NCBI GenBank assembly: GCA_905478775.1 | Contig: CAJQKB010000017.1 | Span: 1 to 64,000, forward strand | DNA: 64,000 nucleotides | DNA from: an uncultured Opitutales bacterium | GTDB taxonomy: Bacteria; Verrucomicrobiota; Verrucomicrobiia; Opitutales; Seribacteraceae | Reading direction: 5' to 3' | Shown here: piece after piece, positions 3,950-13,319 of the stretch | Numbering within the stretch: position 1 is the stretch's first letter | How the letters are laid out: every line of letters begins with the position of its first letter | Translations under genes and position numbers: made by a program | The notes under the pieces: model-generated | Told to the model about the DNA's origin: nothing | Databases searched by the model: none | What the model saw: the letters and a program-made list of their open reading frames with translations, nothing else

Positions 3950-5305
3950 TTATAAGGATCGACCCTCTGACTTATCGAAAAGCGTAAACATTTGTCCTTT
4001 TCTAAAGTAGGTAACTTGTCCGGAAGAGGAGACTACAAGTGCCAATGAATCAGTTACATGAGTAATTGCCGCAGCAGCTGCGTGTCGGGTACCCAATCCA
4101 CCTGGTAACACGATATCATTTGCTTTTGCCTGAATTAAGCATCCCGCTGATTCGACTACACCATTTCCCCGAACAATAAAGGCACCATCAATAAGCGCTA
4201 ATTCCTTTATGGTTTCATCCATAAAAGGATTAAGGATACTACGATCCTCTTCATCATAGCCATAAAATGGGTTTAGGATTAAGGGCTTAGAGCGTTTATT
4301 TACTTCCTTGTGGTCGCCTAGTATAAACATTGCACCAATCGCCTTTCCTTCGCGTCCGGTGGAGGCAAGATCGGTGGCAATGGCAGTAATTCTTTCCAGG
4401 GCCTCCGCGGAAACATCGGGCGGAAGCATTTCTTCACCATGTCCAATAACCGATTCAAATTCTTCATCCACATCGACTACTAAAACGGTGTCTAGTTGTC
4501 CGCTGTTTGGAATTCCTCCAATACAACAAACCCGATCTTGAAAACCGAAAATATCCCGTGTGAGTCCAAGCAGTATGGCCGCTCTGAGTTGAGATAATCG
4601 GGCCCGTGAAAGGGCTCGAACCGCCAATATTGCATCGGCGCGATGGTGAGCACGGTCGTCCTCGGATACATCCTGTCCGGCAAGGACCACATTAAATCCA
4701 GAAAAGGTCATCCGTGGAGCCAGACTGGGTGGGAAAACATCGGCAAAAATAAGAATGGTTGAACATTCTGCCGCTTTCGCAATCTTGGCTGCTTCATCGG
4801 TAAGCAGTTTGTTGAACTTGGTTCTCCTTCTTGCCGGACGGTCATCAGTCCCGGCAAAAGCCTTTCGGACTGCACTTCGGAATTCGGTCTTGCCACGGGC
4901 CATCCAAAGCTGGTCCATGACGGTACTATCTTGAAAGGATCGAGCGAGAGCGGCTAAAAATGAAAGATAGTTTTTTGCTTTTTCATTTGCGAGGAGAAGA
5001 AATACAAAGCGAACATCTTCGTAGCTGTCTTTCCCTTCAAAACTAAGACCGGTCGGGCATCTTCCGATTGCCAGTGCATAAGGTCTTTTCATGGGGACCC
5101 GGGCGTGGGGTAATGCGACACCTTCGCCCAAGTAACTCGTTAATGACTTTTCCCGGTCGACTAATTCTTTCAGTACTTTTTTTCGTTTGGCCGGAGTGGG
5201 TAACAGGGTGGTGAAAGTATCGAGTAATTCAGAATATGCTGAAGTTAAATCGTTGCTGGTTAAATCGACAATTCGATTTACCGAAATATAACGGTCAATA
5301 TGCAT
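3950..5305 (-). CDS. EIIA - PK_C-like - diadenylate cyclase fusion protein
   Basis: The 451-residue protein joins three parts. Residues 1-150 match a PTS EIIA type 2 (nitrogen-type) domain, with the phosphorylatable His67 in GVALPHARVP. Residues 165-300 form an alpha/beta segment that resembles a pyruvate-kinase C-terminal domain (EAAKIAKAAECSTILIFAD). Residues 305-445 are a diadenylate cyclase (DAC) domain with DGAFIV (Asp373) and GLGTRHAAAA (Arg407-His408), which would make c-di-AMP from two ATP. The third residue of the usual RHR motif is Ala. No membrane segment is visible, so it should be cytosolic. It sits between nuoA and nadD. Function as a cyclase is inferred; control by EIIA phosphorylation is a guess. 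Confidence 0.85.
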   Translation of the reverse strand: MHIDRYISVNRIVDLTSNDLTSAYSELLDTFTTLLPTPAKRKKVLKELVDREKSLTSYLGEGVALPHARVPMKRPYALAIGRCPTGLSFEGKDSYEDVRFVFLLLANEKAKNYLSFLAALARSFQDSTVMDQLWMARGKTEFRSAVRKAFAGTDDRPARRRTKFNKLLTDEAAKIAKAAECSTILIFADVFPPSLAPRMTFSGFNVVLAGQDVSEDDRAHHRADAILAVRALSRARLSQLRAAILLGLTRDIFGFQDRVCCIGGIPNSGQLDTVLVVDVDEEFESVIGHGEEMLPPDVSAEALERITAIATDLASTGREGKAIGAMFILGDHKEVNKRSKPLILNPFYGYDEEDRSILNPFMDETIKELALIDGAFIVRGNGVVESAGCLIQAKANDIVLPGGLGTRHAAAAAITHVTDSLALVVSSSGQVTYFRKGQMFTLFDKSEGRSL

Positions 5306-5364: not shown

Positions 5365-5739
5365 TTACTTCTCCCACTCAAGAGCACCGCTTTTTAATTC
5401 ATATACTAAACCCGCAACGAGCACAAAAGTGAAGAACAGCATGGGGCCTAATATTGGAATTCCTGCGGCAACTAGATCACGATGAGTAAGAACCCATGGA
5501 ATGAGAAAAACCACATCAATATCAAATAAGATGAACAACATCGCAGTGATGTAAAATTTAACCGAGTATTTTGTTTCGCCTTTTGACTCTGATGCCAATC
5601 CACATTCATAAGGAGAATCTTTAATTTTACCAGCGATGGCACGTTGGCCAAATAGATGGCTGGCAAAAAGAATACCAAAACCCATTCCAATCGCTAAAAG
5701 AATTTGGATGAGTACTGGTAGATAGTCTAAAAGAGTCAT
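5365..5739 (-). CDS. nuoA: NADH-quinone oxidoreductase subunit A
   Basis: NuoA is a small membrane subunit of complex I, lying at the junction of the quinone site and the membrane arm. The 124-residue product has three hydrophobic helices and the conserved SPYECG motif (Cys binding-loop, about residues 42-47) followed by KYSVKFYITAMLFILFDID. Length is normal. No other nuo gene lies nearby; it heads the minus-strand group with the DAC fusion 59 bases downstream. Confidence 0.94.
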   Translation of the reverse strand: MTLLDYLPVLIQILLAIGMGFGILFASHLFGQRAIAGKIKDSPYECGLASESKGETKYSVKFYITAMLFILFDIDVVFLIPWVLTHRDLVAAGIPILGPMLFFTFVLVAGLVYELKSGALEWEK

Positions 5740-5856: not shown

Positions 5857-6276
5857 ATGATATCTTCTTCTCATAAACATTCTCTGCGGCGTACCAAACA
5901 ACGAGGTTTTACTCTTGTTGAAATTCTCATTGTTTTGGCTTTAATCGGCATTGTTGCCGGTCTGGCAATGTCAAACTTGGGAGAAATCTTTGGTGGTGGA
6001 AAAGTAAAGGCAGCCCAGACTTGGGTTAACAGTACTGGTGAGGCCTATGTGACTAGCTATTTTGCACTAGTCGGGGAGTATCCGAAGAGTCTCGCCGATT
6101 TAAAGACACCTCCGGCGGGCACGCCTCCATTTGTAAAACGATCTTCAGATTTACAGGACCCTTGGGGGAAAGATTACATTTATCAATACCCCGGGACTCA
6201 CAATCCGGGAAGTTTTGATATTTCTACTACTGCACCAGACGGTACTGTTTTAGGGAACTGGGATACCGGGAAGTAA
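5857..6276 (+). CDS. gspG: Type II secretion major pseudopilin GspG
   Basis: GspG is the main subunit of the T2SS pseudopilus. The product (139 aa) has a prepilin leader ending RG, cleavage before FTLVEILIVLALIGIVAGLA with the essential Glu5, and the C-terminal Ca-binding loop typical of GspG (DPWGKDYIYQYPG ... FDISTTAPDGTVLGNWD). It is first in the T2SS operon. A TATAAT hexamer at 5848-5853 lies only three bases before the ATG, so the message could start at or near the start codon. Confidence 0.94.
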   Translation: MISSSHKHSLRRTKQRGFTLVEILIVLALIGIVAGLAMSNLGEIFGGGKVKAAQTWVNSTGEAYVTSYFALVGEYPKSLADLKTPPAGTPPFVKRSSDLQDPWGKDYIYQYPGTHNPGSFDISTTAPDGTVLGNWDTGK

Positions 6277-6277
6277 T

Positions 6278-6817
6278 TTGAAACCGGTACCCAAGGCGTA
6301 CCGAAAGCGAGCCTTTAGCCTAATAGAGGTACTGCTTGTTCTTGCTTTGGTGGCAGTTTTAGTGGGCATTGTAGCGGGGAATGCCGGAGCTTTTATTCAG
6401 GGGAGTAACTTTGAACCCCCTGAGCGAGTATTAAAAAAGGCAGTGCTCGACGCGGTGTATAATGCGAGTGAGAGTAAGCGAGCGGCTTACTTGAGTTATT
6501 TTGAAGAGAATGCAACTTTCATCGTAACCGACTCATCGGGGCAAGTTTTAGCTGAGCATCGAGTATATAAGAAGTTAGATGATAAAATAAGAAAAGAGGA
6601 ATCGCTTATGCCGCAGGTCATATTTCATGCCGTTGGCCCATTAGCGGGAGAAGAGGGAGGAACTTCTCAATACGATGAACGCGACCTAGTACTCAATCGG
6701 GTCTTTTTTCATTCGGGTTCATGTGTACCATTTACTGCCGAGATTGATTTTAGGGATGAAACGAAAAAGTTAGAGTTTGATCCTTTTTCGGGGTATGTGT
6801 TGAAAAGCAAGGAATGA
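6278..6817 (+). CDS. gspH: Type II secretion minor pseudopilin, GspH-like
   Basis: This 179-residue product starts with TTG one base after the gspG stop, preceded by GGAAG. It has a basic leader, then AFSLIEVLLVLALVAVLVGIVAGN, the class III prepilin signal (cleaved before the Phe/Ala with Glu5). The globular part is not conserved enough to prove the subtype; GspH is assigned from position between gspG and gspI and from size. Its stop overlaps the next gene by four bases. Confidence 0.8.
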   Translation: MKPVPKAYRKRAFSLIEVLLVLALVAVLVGIVAGNAGAFIQGSNFEPPERVLKKAVLDAVYNASESKRAAYLSYFEENATFIVTDSSGQVLAEHRVYKKLDDKIRKEESLMPQVIFHAVGPLAGEEGGTSQYDERDLVLNRVFFHSGSCVPFTAEIDFRDETKKLEFDPFSGYVLKSKE

Positions 6818-7311
6818 AATATTCTTTCCATCCCAATACTCATGGAAATGGGTTTATGCTGATTGAAGTATTAATTGCTTTAGCACTTTTTGGTTTGTCT
6901 GCGGTTTTTTTAGTGGACGGTGCATTTATTGCATCCCGAACAATTCGGGTGATGAAAGACACTCGAGAAATGGAGCAGGATCTTCTCTGGGTGCGTGGGG
7001 AAATTTTTAAGGAGTCAGACTATGAGAAGATAAAAGACGGCGGTGATATACAGGCGTTATCCATGGGAGAGATTAGATGGGAGACGGAGGTAGAGATGAC
7101 TAATGTTTTAGACGTCTATCAGGTTACATTATCTCTTGAATATGAAGGGAATGAAGACCTGGGGGTTGAGTCAGGAGAAAGGATTTCTCAAATGTATGTT
7201 TTTCGCCCGTCATGGAGCAAAAATGGGGATTTCTCAACAGAGCGAGAACGATTATTAGAAGATAAAAGGGATAAAATTAGAGAGATCCAGGAAGAAAGGA
7301 GAAGGCAATGA
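6814..7311 (+). CDS. gspI: Type II secretion minor pseudopilin, GspI-like
   Basis: The 165-residue product carries the prepilin signal GFMLIEVLIALALFGLSAVFLVDGA close to the N-terminus with the conserved Glu5. GspI, J and K form the tip of the pseudopilus; this is placed as GspI from order and small size. It overlaps the preceding and following genes by four bases each, which suggests translational coupling. The last 30 residues are rich in Arg, Glu and Lys. Confidence 0.78.
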   Translation: MKYSFHPNTHGNGFMLIEVLIALALFGLSAVFLVDGAFIASRTIRVMKDTREMEQDLLWVRGEIFKESDYEKIKDGGDIQALSMGEIRWETEVEMTNVLDVYQVTLSLEYEGNEDLGVESGERISQMYVFRPSWSKNGDFSTERERLLEDKRDKIREIQEERRRQ

Positions 7312-8021
7312 GCAGAAAGCGAGGCTTTTCCATGATCGAAGTCTTGTTGGCCTTGACAATTGGAGGCTTGGTTTTAATGGCGGCCACCTCTCTGTTAATT
7401 ACCATTTCGAGAGCCTGGGCGGAGAGACCCGCAACTCGCGATGCGTTTGATGCCCATGTAAACGGAGTGGCCCATTTTCTTACCGCCGTATTAGAGGAAG
7501 CTACTTTAGCCACCTTAAATCGCTCTGGAGATGATGTCATTGATTTGCAACGACCCGTTGGATTTTCTGAATCCGATGACCCATTGATTCATTTTTACTT
7601 AAGGGAAGCACCCCCACTTTTAGTCTGGCCGACTGGTTCTGCGAGCCGTGTACATTGTTATTTTCAGTTTACAGAGGGAGAGGGGTTAAGTTTTTTATGG
7701 TTTTCTGAACTTCAAGAACTAGAAAAAAATAAGGAGGGAAGAATGGAGCTTGAAGATGAAGATGATCTTTTTAAAACCGTAATAAGTCCCTTTTGTGCAG
7801 AAATTTTTTATTGCTACTATGGGGATGAAGATGCGGATGCGGACGATATTAAGGAGTGGGAAATTGTGGAAGATTTGGAAGAAAATGTACAATCGGCAAA
7901 ATTTAGGATTCCTGCATTCATGAAGCTTGTGTTTAAGTGGGAACAGGAAGACCTGGAAAGAACTATTACGCTCCCGATTAAAAGAATTTCTCCCAATGGA
8001 ATTGAGGAGGAGCCTTTATAA
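7308..8021 (+). CDS. gspJ: Type II secretion minor pseudopilin, GspJ-like
   Basis: The 237-residue product begins MSRKRGFSMIEVLLALTIGGLVLMAATSLL, a class III prepilin signal with Glu5. Its larger size and place just before the GspK gene fit GspJ. The globular domain contains a very acidic stretch around residues 145-185 (ELEDEDD, DEDADADD). The stop codon shares a base with the next start. Confidence 0.8.
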   Translation: MSRKRGFSMIEVLLALTIGGLVLMAATSLLITISRAWAERPATRDAFDAHVNGVAHFLTAVLEEATLATLNRSGDDVIDLQRPVGFSESDDPLIHFYLREAPPLLVWPTGSASRVHCYFQFTEGEGLSFLWFSELQELEKNKEGRMELEDEDDLFKTVISPFCAEIFYCYYGDEDADADDIKEWEIVEDLEENVQSAKFRIPAFMKLVFKWEQEDLERTITLPIKRISPNGIEEEPL

Positions 8022-9097
8022 TGATTACGGGGCGAAAAGGCTCGATTCTGGTTTTTATTCTTGCATTAATTGTACTACTTTCGGTGTTGTGCATGCGACT
8101 AATGCAGGAAACTGTCCAGGAACTCCGTCATGTGAGCCAATTTCACCGACGAGATGATTTAAGAATGCACGCCTATTCTGCGCTGGATGTATCTGTCGGG
8201 GTACTCAACGAATTTATGCTGGTGGAGAGAACATTATATTCTCCCTCTCAAGGGTGGGGGAATCCCCTTAGTTATTCGGAGATTTCTCCTCTCGATCCTA
8301 CGGTTAAATGGTCGATCTCATTGGTGGATGAATCGGGAAAGGTTCCAATATCAACAATCGCGGAAAAAGATTTAGTCTCTCTCTTTTCGGTTATGCGTGC
8401 GGAGGGTGATTCCTTGGTGAATGAAGATGATGGGCAGCCTTTCTACGATAGTTTGATGGACTGGCAGGATGCGGATGAGGAGGAAAGAGATGAGGGGGCA
8501 GAGGATGATTACTATGAAGATCTTGAATTCCCTTACTTCACTCCCGGTAAAAAGATTCAAAATTTCGAGGAATTTCGTATGGTAAAAGGCTTTGCGTATG
8601 ATCCAGATGATCCTGATGAATCCGGTCTCTTTTATACAGACGAAGGAAGTGAAACAATTCACCTGAAAAATTTTCGCGAAAGTTTTTCATTTTTCCACAA
8701 CGGTCCGGTCAATATAAACACCGCCTCTCCTTATTTGGTTAAATTTTTGTGTGGAGATGATGATAGCCTATACGATGAGGTAATTGCGGGGCCAAGTAGT
8801 TCTTCAGGAGATCCTTATTTCAAGAGTATGAACGATCCAAAACTTGCCCAGTTGAGGAGCAATCGTTCAATTAGCACGAGCACCACAGCAAGTGTTTTTC
8901 GCGTATTGGTAACAGTTACAAAAGGGAAGGCAAATTTTCAGTTGCATGCTATTCTTGCAAGCGGGAATGCTGCTCAGCCCAAATCGCAGGGTAGGGGAGC
9001 AAAGGTTGCCCCCAAGCCAAGAAGTCCGCAAAATACTAAAATGCAATATCCATTTCGAATTCTTTCTATTCGAGAAAACGAGAATTTGATCGACTGA
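8021..9097 (+). CDS. gspK: Type II secretion minor pseudopilin GspK
   Basis: GspK caps the pseudopilus tip. The 358-residue protein has a prepilin-like N-terminus (GSILVFILALIVLLSVLCM) in which the fifth position after the Gly is not the usual Glu, as is normal for GspK. It contains the family stretch VNINTASPYLVKFLCGDDD, the helix-hairpin-helix-like core of GspK. An acidic segment (about residues 145-170, EDDYYEDLEFPY) is prominent. It directly follows the three smaller pseudopilin genes. Confidence 0.87.
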   Translation: MITGRKGSILVFILALIVLLSVLCMRLMQETVQELRHVSQFHRRDDLRMHAYSALDVSVGVLNEFMLVERTLYSPSQGWGNPLSYSEISPLDPTVKWSISLVDESGKVPISTIAEKDLVSLFSVMRAEGDSLVNEDDGQPFYDSLMDWQDADEEERDEGAEDDYYEDLEFPYFTPGKKIQNFEEFRMVKGFAYDPDDPDESGLFYTDEGSETIHLKNFRESFSFFHNGPVNINTASPYLVKFLCGDDDSLYDEVIAGPSSSSGDPYFKSMNDPKLAQLRSNRSISTSTTASVFRVLVTVTKGKANFQLHAILASGNAAQPKSQGRGAKVAPKPRSPQNTKMQYPFRILSIRENENLID

Positions 9098-9133
9098 ATA
9101 TGGATTTAGCATTATAAAAAAAGAACCATTTCT

Positions 9134-10396
9134 ATGGCGGAAACCCCTGAAAAATCATCCGAATTTCCTGTTGGAGAACTTCGAGAATTCACCCTTCGAA
9201 TCCCTGGTGAACACTTTTTTTGTGATACAATTTCTTTCCCCACTTCGCTCAAGGCCGAAAAATATCAGGATTTTGCAGAATTTGTCTTGAGCGAGGGAGG
9301 GCTGTCTCCTTATCCTGTCGATCAACTAGCGTGGGGTTATCAGGCAGATGAGGAGCAGAGGAAAATATTTATATTCGGAACCCCTCTTGCAAAACTGCGC
9401 CAAATAGGTTGGCAGAATCTCGAATTATTTCGACGCGTTTTTCCTTCTTTTATCTCTCTGCTCGGAAATGAATACCCTGAACCAACAATTGTATTTTTGC
9501 TTTTTGAGGAAACTTTAACTGCGGCATCTTTTCAGGAAGAATGTAGTGTGCCTGACTTGCTGTATTCTGTTGCTTTGGATCCGGAAGAAGGGGACGAGTC
9601 GATCGAGGATGCGCGAGGAAAGCTTTTATCTCTTTTCGATTTGGAGAGATACGAGATCAGTAAAGATATATTGGTTGCAGGTGAGGTCGAAAGAACAAAG
9701 GATGGTTTTTTTAAATTTGAGCATAATTGGTTGGTGGGGAAAGATTCAGATCTTTCCTTGGATCAGGATGTATTACTTTCGGCCGATGAACTTTGGACGA
9801 GCGACCTTCGGCAGCGTGAATTTATCGATGTCGAGCAAAAGAGAAGAAATCAGGCTAGAGCGAGATGGAAGGGGATTCTTGTTTGGAGTGTGGGCATGGC
9901 GGCAATGCTACTCGTTTTTGCTGGAATTAAGATTATGGGCGTCAAGTTGGAGGAAAGAAAATTACTCAGTCAAAAGTACGCGGAGGAAGTTCCATTGGTC
10001 ATCGAATCACAAAAGCTTCTCGAAAAACTTCGTCAAAATAAACTGGGTGGAATTGATCCGTTTGGTGCTTTAATAAGAGTTGCCGTTCACAGAGGCGGTA
10101 TTGCGGGGGATCCTAATTTGTGGTTTTCTTTGGCTCACTTCGAGAGTAGGAACGAGGTTAGGTTGGAAGGTGAGGGCAAAACGATTGAAGCCATTAACAC
10201 CTTCATAAAAAGTCTGGAGAAAAACAACATTGCCAATATCCGAGTGAGTCGCTCCGGGGAGGAAATGAGGGAAATTAAGAGTGGCGGAGGCAAGACAACT
10301 TTTGAAATAGAAATTAAAATAGTAGAGGAAGGAAAGGTTAAGTCCGCTTACTTATCCACAGATTCTTCGGGGGGGAATTTATTAAATAAGGGATGA
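9134..10396 (+). CDS. gspL: Type II secretion inner-membrane platform protein, GspL-like
   Basis: The 420-residue product has a cytoplasmic N-terminal region of about 235 residues, one transmembrane helix around 246-268 (GILVWSVGMAAMLLVFAGIKI), and a periplasmic C-terminal region with a ferredoxin-like look. That layout, and its place before a GspM-like gene, fits GspL, which recruits the GspE ATPase. Sequence similarity alone is weak. A run of seven G residues lies at 10369-10375 near the C-terminus. The stop overlaps the next ATG (ATGA). Confidence 0.75.
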   Translation: MAETPEKSSEFPVGELREFTLRIPGEHFFCDTISFPTSLKAEKYQDFAEFVLSEGGLSPYPVDQLAWGYQADEEQRKIFIFGTPLAKLRQIGWQNLELFRRVFPSFISLLGNEYPEPTIVFLLFEETLTAASFQEECSVPDLLYSVALDPEEGDESIEDARGKLLSLFDLERYEISKDILVAGEVERTKDGFFKFEHNWLVGKDSDLSLDQDVLLSADELWTSDLRQREFIDVEQKRRNQARARWKGILVWSVGMAAMLLVFAGIKIMGVKLEERKLLSQKYAEEVPLVIESQKLLEKLRQNKLGGIDPFGALIRVAVHRGGIAGDPNLWFSLAHFESRNEVRLEGEGKTIEAINTFIKSLEKNNIANIRVSRSGEEMREIKSGGGKTTFEIEIKIVEEGKVKSAYLSTDSSGGNLLNKG

Positions 10397-10941
10397 ATGT
10401 CTTGAAAAAACTTTTTTTTAAATTAAACGACCGTGAACAAATTCTTTTGTTGTTTTCTCTATGGATCGTTGTCCTGGTCTGTTTTTTTAAGTTTTTCGAG
10501 TCGGGTCTGTCACTTTATCAGGAATGGGGCTTAACCGAACAAATGATTGCGGGGCACCAGACAGTTATCAATTTGAAGCCAGTAATTGATCAAGCTTTGG
10601 AAGCACAAAAATTGGAACAGGCAAACAAGAGTTACGATAAAAATAATCTGAGTAACCGAGTATCCACGCTCGCTGATAAAGTTTTTCCACAACGAGATTA
10701 TCGCGAATTGGATACTGATGAAAGAGAACGGTATTCCCAGCACAAGGTGAGGATTAAATTTGCTCGATCGAGTTATGAAAATGTGAACGAATTTGCAGAT
10801 TTGATCAGGCAGGAGAGCCCTTATATGTTTCTCAGTGAAGTTAAGATTGAACCAAACTATCCACCTAAATCACGACCATATGATCCGACCACATACGACG
10901 CAACTTTTGTGGTAAGCTCGGTGGAGTTTGTGAGCCAATAA
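10393..10941 (+). CDS. gspM: Type II secretion inner-membrane protein, GspM-like
   Basis: The 182-residue product has a short basic N-terminus, a single membrane helix (about 17-35, ILLLFSLWIVVLVCFFKFF) and a periplasmic part with an alpha-helical linker and small C-terminal domain. This is the GspM plan; GspM pairs with GspL in the platform. The call rests on topology and position more than on motifs. It is coupled to the gspL gene by a four-base overlap. Confidence 0.72.
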   Translation: MNVLKKLFFKLNDREQILLLFSLWIVVLVCFFKFFESGLSLYQEWGLTEQMIAGHQTVINLKPVIDQALEAQKLEQANKSYDKNNLSNRVSTLADKVFPQRDYRELDTDERERYSQHKVRIKFARSSYENVNEFADLIRQESPYMFLSEVKIEPNYPPKSRPYDPTTYDATFVVSSVEFVSQ

Positions 10942-10958
10942 AATAATGCCCATTTATC

Positions 10959-13319
10959 ATGTCTAAAAACAAGAGTTTAAAATTTTTGATATCACGATCG
11001 TTCGCTTTGCTGTTGATTGGTTTCTTATTTGAAGTCCACGGCCAGGTACCGGTGAACGATCTTCCTGCTGCCCCAGCGCCATCTACTGGCCTTGTTGGGG
11101 CACCGGAGGAATTTGATGACCTTGGCTTAGGCGTCTTGGCGGACCCCGTTGAACTGCGCTTGGTGGATGGACTCGAAGAGCCTTTGGAAAGACTTCGTTT
11201 ACGAGATCAGGATACAAATATGATTTTGGATATGATTCAAGTGCTCACAGATAAGTACATTTTACGTCCTCAAAATCTTCCCCAAGTGAAAGTTAATTTT
11301 GATAGTTTTAGTATTTTGACAAAAAGAGAAACATTACTCGTTTTGGATAGTTTGTTGGCGATGAATGGTATTGGAATCAGTAGGATAAATGATCGAGTAT
11401 ACAAGGCTGTTCCCGCAGCGGGCATGAATGTTCATGTGCCTATTTGGCTGGAAGGCCCTGCCTCTTCAATCAAGCCGAGTCAAAGAATATACATGAAGAT
11501 GTTTCATCTCGAATATGCTCCAGCGGTGGAGGTGCGTGAGCAATTAATTCCATTCTCTACCCCAAATGTGGGAGCGTTACTTCTTTTTGAAAAGGCAAAC
11601 AGTATATTGGCGACTGATTCTTTACTGAACCTCCAGCGCATGGAAAAGTTGTTGGTTTCTATTGATCGTCCCATTAGTAGAGAAGAGTTGGGGACTGAAT
11701 TTTTTATTCATGATACACTCCACGCAGGAGCCCGTGAATTGGAGACCAAATTAAAAACTATGATAGAGGGTAGTTTTAAATCATTTATTGGCGGAACGAC
11801 GCAGGTGGATTCGGACGAAAGGACAGGAAAGCTTATTGTTGTGACCCGGACGGAAAATCTGGAAACGATTAAATTCATATTAGCAACTTTGGACGCTCCG
11901 GTTAAGATGAAAACCACAAGCAAGCTTTTTAAACTGCAGCATGCTGAGGCAAAAGATATTCAATCTATTCTTGATGAAGTAATCAAAAAGCAACAAAGCA
12001 TAAAGCAGAAGGTTCAGGGGGGGAAAAACATAAGGCCTACTGCCAACAATTCAAAGTCCGGTGCAAAGCCTCCAACCCCAGGTGGGCAAAATTCTGCAGC
12101 CCCGGGCGCAAATCAAACAAATTCTTCCTCTGGTGAAGCCGAGGGTTCTCATGAATTTAGTGATTTTATTACCATTTCTGCAGATGAAAGAAGTAATGCA
12201 ATTCTGGTTTATGGAACCAAGGCGGACATAACTGAAATTGGGATGATGATTGAATCGCTTGACCAACCACTCCCCCTTGCCCGCATTGATACTATTTTTG
12301 TAATGGTCGATCTAACTGAGCAAAACCAGCGAGGAATTGATGCTCTCTTTAGCAATCTTGAGTGGTCTAAATATTCCAGAGGAGCAAGAGGGGAAGGTTT
12401 ATTCGGAGAAACTGCCACAGCCAATGAGTCGCTTACTTTACCGTCCGGCGAAACCGCAACAAGGCAAGTTCCAATTGAATCAAATAATTTGCAGGGAATA
12501 ATGGGAATACCAGGTCTAAATTCTGCGATTCCTTTCGAAATGTCGGACTGGGAATTAACTGGTGTTAGGTGGGATCAAATTTTTGCTCTTTCTTCCGAAC
12601 GTAATGATGTAAGGATCTTTTCTACGCCCTCGCTTATGGTTTCTCATAATGCACCAGAGGTCCATATTTTGATCGAGGATGAACGAAATATTGTGATACC
12701 AACCTATTATGGGAATACTTCAACGGATGGTACGAGCAGTACCGGAAATGCGGAGAAAATTACCGCGAAGACATCACTTGAAATTAAGAAGCCAAAAATA
12801 GGACTTCCATTAATTGATGAAAATGGAACTATTATATCGAAGGGCTCTATTTTTATGGAGGTAGAGGTGAAGGCAGAAAAGTTTGATGAAACTCAGAGTA
12901 ATACTTATCAAGGTCAGTCTTTACCGGCTAAAAAAATACGAGAAGCGAAGTCTTTTGTGACGATTAGAGACGAAGAAATCATTGTTTTGGGTGGACTGCA
13001 AGAGGTACAGGTTGATTCAACAGAATCTAAATATAACCTGTTAAGTGATATTCCATATTTTGGTGATAAGTTTTTCCGACCACAAACGATTAAATATACA
13101 CCCACCGAATTGCTCATTTTTCTAAAGCCCACAATAATGAAGCCCGGACGAGATAACACACTTAAAAACATCAGATCCATTGACGAGAGAATTGATAGTG
13201 AATACGCACCCAAATTCCGCTCCCCATCGGGTCGAATTTTGGGTATGCCCAATATTGATGGAATCCAACAAAATAATACATCTTCTCCAGATGTGCAGTC
13301 CAGCAAGCCTTCATTTTAA
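10959..13319 (+). CDS. gspD: Type II secretion outer-membrane secretin GspD
   Basis: GspD forms the outer-membrane channel. The 786-residue protein has an N-terminal signal peptide (SFALLLIGFLFEVHG), N0/N1-N3 type repeat domains (about 70-440) separated by a Gly/Asn/Pro-rich linker (about 345-395), and the C-terminal secretin core with the typical VRIFSTPSLMVSHNAPEVHI, EAKSFVTIRDEEIIVLGGL and IPYFGDKFF stretches. Length is normal to large. Seven G residues in a row occur at 12017-12023 within the linker. It precedes the GspC-like gene by only one base. Confidence 0.95.
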   Translation: MSKNKSLKFLISRSFALLLIGFLFEVHGQVPVNDLPAAPAPSTGLVGAPEEFDDLGLGVLADPVELRLVDGLEEPLERLRLRDQDTNMILDMIQVLTDKYILRPQNLPQVKVNFDSFSILTKRETLLVLDSLLAMNGIGISRINDRVYKAVPAAGMNVHVPIWLEGPASSIKPSQRIYMKMFHLEYAPAVEVREQLIPFSTPNVGALLLFEKANSILATDSLLNLQRMEKLLVSIDRPISREELGTEFFIHDTLHAGARELETKLKTMIEGSFKSFIGGTTQVDSDERTGKLIVVTRTENLETIKFILATLDAPVKMKTTSKLFKLQHAEAKDIQSILDEVIKKQQSIKQKVQGGKNIRPTANNSKSGAKPPTPGGQNSAAPGANQTNSSSGEAEGSHEFSDFITISADERSNAILVYGTKADITEIGMMIESLDQPLPLARIDTIFVMVDLTEQNQRGIDALFSNLEWSKYSRGARGEGLFGETATANESLTLPSGETATRQVPIESNNLQGIMGIPGLNSAIPFEMSDWELTGVRWDQIFALSSERNDVRIFSTPSLMVSHNAPEVHILIEDERNIVIPTYYGNTSTDGTSSTGNAEKITAKTSLEIKKPKIGLPLIDENGTIISKGSIFMEVEVKAEKFDETQSNTYQGQSLPAKKIREAKSFVTIRDEEIIVLGGLQEVQVDSTESKYNLLSDIPYFGDKFFRPQTIKYTPTELLIFLKPTIMKPGRDNTLKNIRSIDERIDSEYAPKFRSPSGRILGMPNIDGIQQNNTSSPDVQSSKPSF

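Follow-up and report, generated by a model that had tools for sequence, protein, structure and literature searches.

A fusion of EIIA, pyruvate kinase-like and diadenylate cyclase domains as a candidate link between a regulatory phosphotransferase system and c-di-AMP in Opitutales

In a draft genome of the Opitutales (Verrucomicrobiota; 2.78 Mb, 185 contigs, 95% complete), a single gene joins an EIIA domain of the phosphotransferase system (PTS), a PK_C-like domain and a diadenylate cyclase (DAC) domain. The question raised by this locus is whether the phosphorylation state of the PTS controls the synthesis of c-di-AMP. The wiring can here be read from the genome: one phosphorelay and one visible EIIA end point. 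We lean toward the reading that the fusion serves as the principal c-di-AMP synthase of the Opitutales, apparently belonging to the class DacD, and that a regulatory PTS without a visible transporter governs its activity.

Under this reading, phosphate would pass from PEP through EI and HPr to His67 of the fused EIIA domain, and the PEP/pyruvate ratio, together with HPr kinase acting on HPr-Ser, would set the phosphorylation state. This state would change the action of the EIIA domain on the PK_C-like and DAC domains, turning c-di-AMP synthesis up or down. A second input, from a small molecule, probably enters through the PK_C-like domain, and c-di-AMP would then adjust potassium transport and the osmotic state. 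The steps that we infer are the phosphotransfer to His67, the response of the cyclase and its sign, the ligand of the PK_C-like domain and a potassium output in the species itself.

The fusion gene and its neighbours

The features of the locus are listed below by their positions in the window, i.e., the whole stretch of 64,000 nucleotides that was analysed.

3950..5305, (-): fusion gene for EIIA, PK_C-like (DacZ_P) and DAC domains, 451 aa; ORF with ATG start, Pfam
4868..5185, (-): PTS_EIIA_2 domain, residues 41-146; Pfam 67.2 bits, cut-off 27
4454..4807, (-): DacZ_P domain (PF21755), residues 167-284; Pfam 45.5 bits, cut-off 27.4
3992..4366, (-): DAC domain (PF02457), residues 314-438; Pfam 72.1 bits, cut-off 27
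5105..5107, (-): codon of His67, putative phospho-acceptor; PtsN alignment
4181..4189, (-): DGA motif, residues 373-375; sequence
4079..4087, (-): RHA motif, residues 407-409; sequence
5365..5739, (-): nuoA (NADH dehydrogenase chain 3), upstream neighbour; Pfam Oxidored_q4, 97.3 bits
3340..3942, (-): nadD-like nucleotidyltransferase gene, 7 bases downstream of the fusion; Pfam CTP_transf_like, 83.2 bits
2953..3327, (-): rsfS (ribosomal silencing factor); Pfam RsfS, 91.4 bits

The order EIIA, PK_C-like and DAC proposed in the initial annotation is borne out, with PTS_EIIA_2 (70.1 bits in the search of the whole genome), DacZ_P and DAC all above their Pfam cut-offs. Thus both the N-terminal and the middle parts match families, the latter DacZ_P by Pfam and PK_C at the level of the fold. 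All of the 30 homologues aligned contain the same three domains. The protein shares 43-51% identity with distant relatives within the order, and each domain has a nonsynonymous distance of 0.02-0.18 versus a near-saturated synonymous distance. The fusion is therefore not a product of chance, and purifying selection, as judged from these distances, acts on all three domains.

The evidence for the nature of the middle domain comes from structural modelling. With an AlphaFold2 model of residues 161-300 (pLDDT 86, pTM 0.80), all 50 PDB matches listed by Foldseek are pyruvate kinases (best E 1e-4), whereas the sequence profile of this domain gave no match among solved structures. The label 'PK_C-like' is therefore right at the fold level, where the modelled domain is a pyruvate kinase C-terminal fold, and not at the level of the sequence profile. 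Since a Pfam family DacZ_P exists, curators were already aware of this domain. A second model, of the full-length protein (pLDDT 80, pTM 0.60), matches PtsN structures and CdaA-type cyclases, and its domain arrangement is not trustworthy. Fructose-1,6-bisphosphate was considered as an input to the PK_C-like domain and is unsupported; the phosphate loop of pyruvate kinase is rich in Thr and Ser, and the conserved FxDTF loop after the first strand, judged by eye, looks unlike it.

Of the neighbours, nuoA is found just upstream of the fusion, in the same orientation, in 72 of the 79 related loci, and nadD and rsfS are conserved downstream in closer relatives. The nuoA gene is isolated, with no other nuo gene among the nearby ORFs. 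Divergent from nuoA and the cyclase gene, a series of genes for pseudopilin-like proteins and a secretin-like protein (5857-13319, + strand; by eye) resembles a system for type II secretion or a type IV pilus, and most close relatives also have the pseudopilin, GspJ-like and GspK-like genes. A scan of promoters and terminators yielded about as many sites as shuffled sequence.

Phosphotransferase components and residue 67

The closest solved structures to the N-terminal part are those of PtsN, both by sequence and by fold. His67 lies in GVALPHAR, which aligns with GVAIPHGR of PtsN, and the domain thus contains the phospho-histidine motif GVAxPHxR, with His67 as the putative phospho-acceptor. 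His67 is retained in 79 of 80 close and mid-range relatives, and the surroundings of PHxR are among the best-conserved stretches of the domain. Where PtsN has its second active-site His, the fusion has Tyr113 in the alignment, and this Tyr is invariant among the aligned homologues.

The genome encodes one EI (586 aa, all three EI domains, GGRTSH motif), one HPr (HARPA and KSIMG motifs), whose gene is convergent with that of EI, and one HPr kinase. The EI and HPr genes are on another contig, in agreement with the earlier remark that neither is in the window. The search of this genome covered PTS_EIIA_2, PTS_EIIC and EIIA-man; the latter two were not found, and the fusion is the only PTS_EIIA_2 protein, as well as the only DAC, found. 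Within this scope, the PEP-EI-HPr chain therefore has the cyclase as its sole visible EIIA end point, and further targets of HPr, among other EIIA, EIIB or EIIC families, are possible. In proteobacteria, rpoN, hpf and ptsN are often found near hprK and lptB. As hprK directly follows lptB here (by eye), the expected site holds no stand-alone ptsN. With the fusion being the sole c-di-AMP enzyme and the sole such phosphate acceptor found, the energy state may directly control c-di-AMP.

The arrangement was surveyed in 87 genomes of the order, with residue 67 read from the retrieved DAC genes. DAC is present in 78 genomes, EIIA_2 in 71 and EI in 69. Most of the DACs in the 78 genomes are the fusion, and the predicted arrangement recurs at full length in 70 of the 87, being both the sole EIIA_2 and the sole DAC in 43. 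DacZ_P is found in 67 of 388 genomes of the phylum, most of them within the order; beyond the order, G035, G384 and G319 have fusions with His67 as well.

If His67 is phosphorylated through EI, it is expected to decay where EI has been lost, and this was tested across the order. In the EI-positive genomes (n = 60 scorable), residue 67 is His in 52, Tyr in five and Ser or Cys in three. The EI-negative genomes (n = 15) comprise seven with His67, two with Tyr, one with Cys and five without the EIIA domain, the last being family f96 and G416, with genomes of 0.8-0.9 Mb. The association of His67 with EI has the expected direction (Fisher p = 0.002), which should be taken as an indication and not as a true probability, since the genomes share ancestry and include incomplete drafts. 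The small genomes without EIIA retain the PK_C-like and DAC domains, so that the cyclase part is the better protected one.

Two families depart from the trend. In family f10 (G367, G408, G418, G429 and G439), every one of the five genomes combines EI with Tyr at residue 67, and the remainder of EIIA is recognisable. In family f4, EI is present and residue 67 is Ser or Cys, and two of the three such genomes have a separate EIIA frame of 161 aa. The EIIA domain can thus persist without a phospho-acceptor, and phosphorylation is not universal. The suggestion that phosphotransfer could control the cyclase is strengthened by EI, HPr, HPr kinase and a sole PTS_EIIA_2 in the genome studied, and fails as a universal rule in view of the EI-bearing clade with Tyr67.

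These exceptions bear on a first alternative, in which EIIA is a structural or docking module for oligomerisation or for the binding of HPr or a partner, free of phospho-regulation, and control of the cyclase falls to the PK_C-like domain or to the binding of a partner. Families f10 and f4, the several EI-negative genomes that retain His67, and the replacement of the second active-site His by Tyr113 all fit such a module, but it leaves unexplained the prevalence of His67 in EI-positive genomes and in the closer relatives, the conservation around PHxR, and the retention of EI and HPr in a genome where no other EIIA_2 partner is seen. We consider this alternative unlikely, though it is the most serious of those weighed here, and retain control through His67 as the preferred reading.

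Several related genes were observed in the survey. In G408 and G429 of family f10, no other PTS_EIIA_2 was found. Five genes of about 280-320 aa (L201, L158, L159, L202 and L205, in G173, G431, G420, G348 and G246, respectively) encode PK_C-like domains related to DacZ_P and DAC domains without EIIA, and in G173 and G431 such a gene coexists with the EIIA fusion. Family f85 has CdaA-type DACs composed of CdaA_N and DAC (L119, L120 and L121, in G431, G441 and G410, respectively), with an extra membrane helix and about 150 aa beyond DAC. This tail resembles a YbbR/CdaR-type domain by eye and received no Pfam call; if it is of that type, these proteins would be CdaA-CdaR fusions. The seeming absence of EIIA from G395 appears to reflect a break in the assembly, since the end of one contig and the start of another share a peptide stretch and jointly carry all parts of the fusion.

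The cyclase domain and potassium

c-di-AMP usually curbs potassium uptake. No c-di-AMP riboswitch was found in the genome studied, and riboswitches of the ydaO/yuaA type were found in two of the 87 genomes of the order:

L118:1501-1648, (-): c-di-AMP riboswitch in genome G433, 65.3 bits
L117:1501-1670, (-): c-di-AMP riboswitch in genome G399

The riboswitch in G433, a genome with the fusion as its only DAC, is about 63-64 bases upstream of a gene for a TrkH potassium transporter on the same strand. What is read directly from the sequences thus comprises the domains, the motifs, their conservation, the single copies, and a riboswitch before a potassium gene in a relative. In the genome studied, 1.38 of the 2.78 Mb was read for potassium proteins; this part encodes a potassium channel-like protein carrying a pair each of TrkA_N and TrkA_C domains, and no TrkH was found in it. 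In KtrA, the TrkA_C domain is known as a receptor of c-di-AMP (PMC7288161), and in other bacteria the unphosphorylated EIIA-Ntr (PtsN) activates potassium uptake via KdpD (PMC9239096). On the strength of the riboswitch before TrkH, the TrkA_C channel and the EIIA-Ntr action on KdpD elsewhere, potassium would, by analogy, be the likeliest output of the fusion signal. Since unphosphorylated PtsN activates potassium uptake and c-di-AMP usually curbs it, one may guess, weakly and by analogy, that the unphosphorylated EIIA domain restrains the cyclase.

In a second alternative, EIIA would serve as a phosphate sink, or as a switch that responds to c-di-AMP and informs other proteins, and the fusion would merely co-locate two potassium regulators. 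Unphosphorylated EIIA-Ntr proteins do act by partner binding, KdpD included (PMC9239096), but no candidate partner was identified here, and the general view of N-terminal domains in DAC proteins is that they recognise signals for the cyclase (PMC5508000). This alternative is accordingly judged improbable, and an EIIA domain acting on its own cyclase is still preferred.

The DAC part has a fold match to CdaA/DacA, and D373, G374, R407 and H408 are invariant in all 79 relatives. The initial annotation read RHA in place of RHR in the DAC motif. The reading is correct, and its significance is lost: the R-H pair is invariant, residue 409 varies among the relatives (A, S, T, M and others), and the CdaA-type DACs of family f85, in the same order, also read GTRHAAA, so that RHA is uninformative. 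That the domain is inactive or produces another nucleotide on account of RHA is thus very improbable, considering the invariant DG and RH residues, the RHA of CdaA-type proteins and the c-di-AMP riboswitch in a relative whose sole DAC is the fusion, and nothing in the sequence suggests inactivity.

For much of the order, it may tentatively be proposed that the PTS has no visible transport role and acts to set c-di-AMP, that EI-HPr has no EIIA partner other than the fusion, and that the PEP/pyruvate state is conveyed directly by a second messenger to the control of potassium; this extension is possible, with considerable doubt. If the wiring is confirmed, the PTS of those Opitutales without a visible transporter would have a purpose, and one protein would join EIIA-Ntr and c-di-AMP, each a potassium regulator in other bacteria.

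Comparison with known systems

The arrangement had been placed outside the well-studied classes. This is supported in so far as the fusion is below the NCBIfam cut-offs of CdaA, DisA and CdaS, and is qualified in that it is probably not uncharted, in view of DacD (PMC6741144). The DAC fold and the DG/RH motifs are common to the fusion and to CdaA, CdaS, CdaM and DisA. These proteins differ in their N-terminal parts, and the fusion is far below every one of their NCBIfam cut-offs, e.g., CdaA (29.4 vs 188.8 bits, with no Pfam match to CdaA_N) and DisA (14.8 vs 201 bits).

The EIIA domain resembles PtsN (EIIA-Ntr) in its phospho-histidine motif and in its genomic setting of EI, HPr and HPr kinase with EIIC not found. 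It differs in being joined to a cyclase, whereas PtsN is a stand-alone protein, and in having Tyr113 for the second active-site His; the score against the NCBIfam PtsN model is below the cut-off (42.8 vs 138.7 bits).

The proposed resemblance to archaeal DacZ, also CdaZ (DacY), is confirmed as a resemblance. In DacZ, a pyruvate kinase C-terminal fold is followed by DAC (PMC6741144), and the fusion likewise has this fold directly before DAC. The NCBIfam DacZ model matches residues 239-441 (E 2.4e-28) below its cut-off (99.3 vs 430 bits), and the fusion has an extra EIIA domain at its N-terminus.

The closest known counterpart is DacD, which Corrigan and Gruendling in 2013 reportedly drew as EIIA plus DAC. 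The DacD name in PMC6741144 follows the class scheme of Corrigan and Gruendling 2013, and five members are cited there: Lacunisphaera, Puniceicoccaceae, Coraliomargarita, a verrucomicrobium and an Opitutae bacterium. The fusion is present at a Lacunisphaera locus (L076), and it has the DAC domain, the N-terminal PTS EIIA by which the class is reportedly defined, and the occurrence in Opitutia. The literature searched contained no experimental study of a DacD-type fusion, no paper combining diadenylate cyclase, DacZ and EIIA, and no report of testing control of c-di-AMP by the energy state or the PTS through this fusion, and the class is apparently uncharacterised. No difference between DacD and the fusion was found, though the scheme may omit the middle domain, and the fusion therefore probably belongs to this catalogued class. 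For DacD, this analysis contributes the wiring at the level of the genome, a fold assignment for the middle domain, a partial co-loss with EI and a link to a potassium riboswitch.
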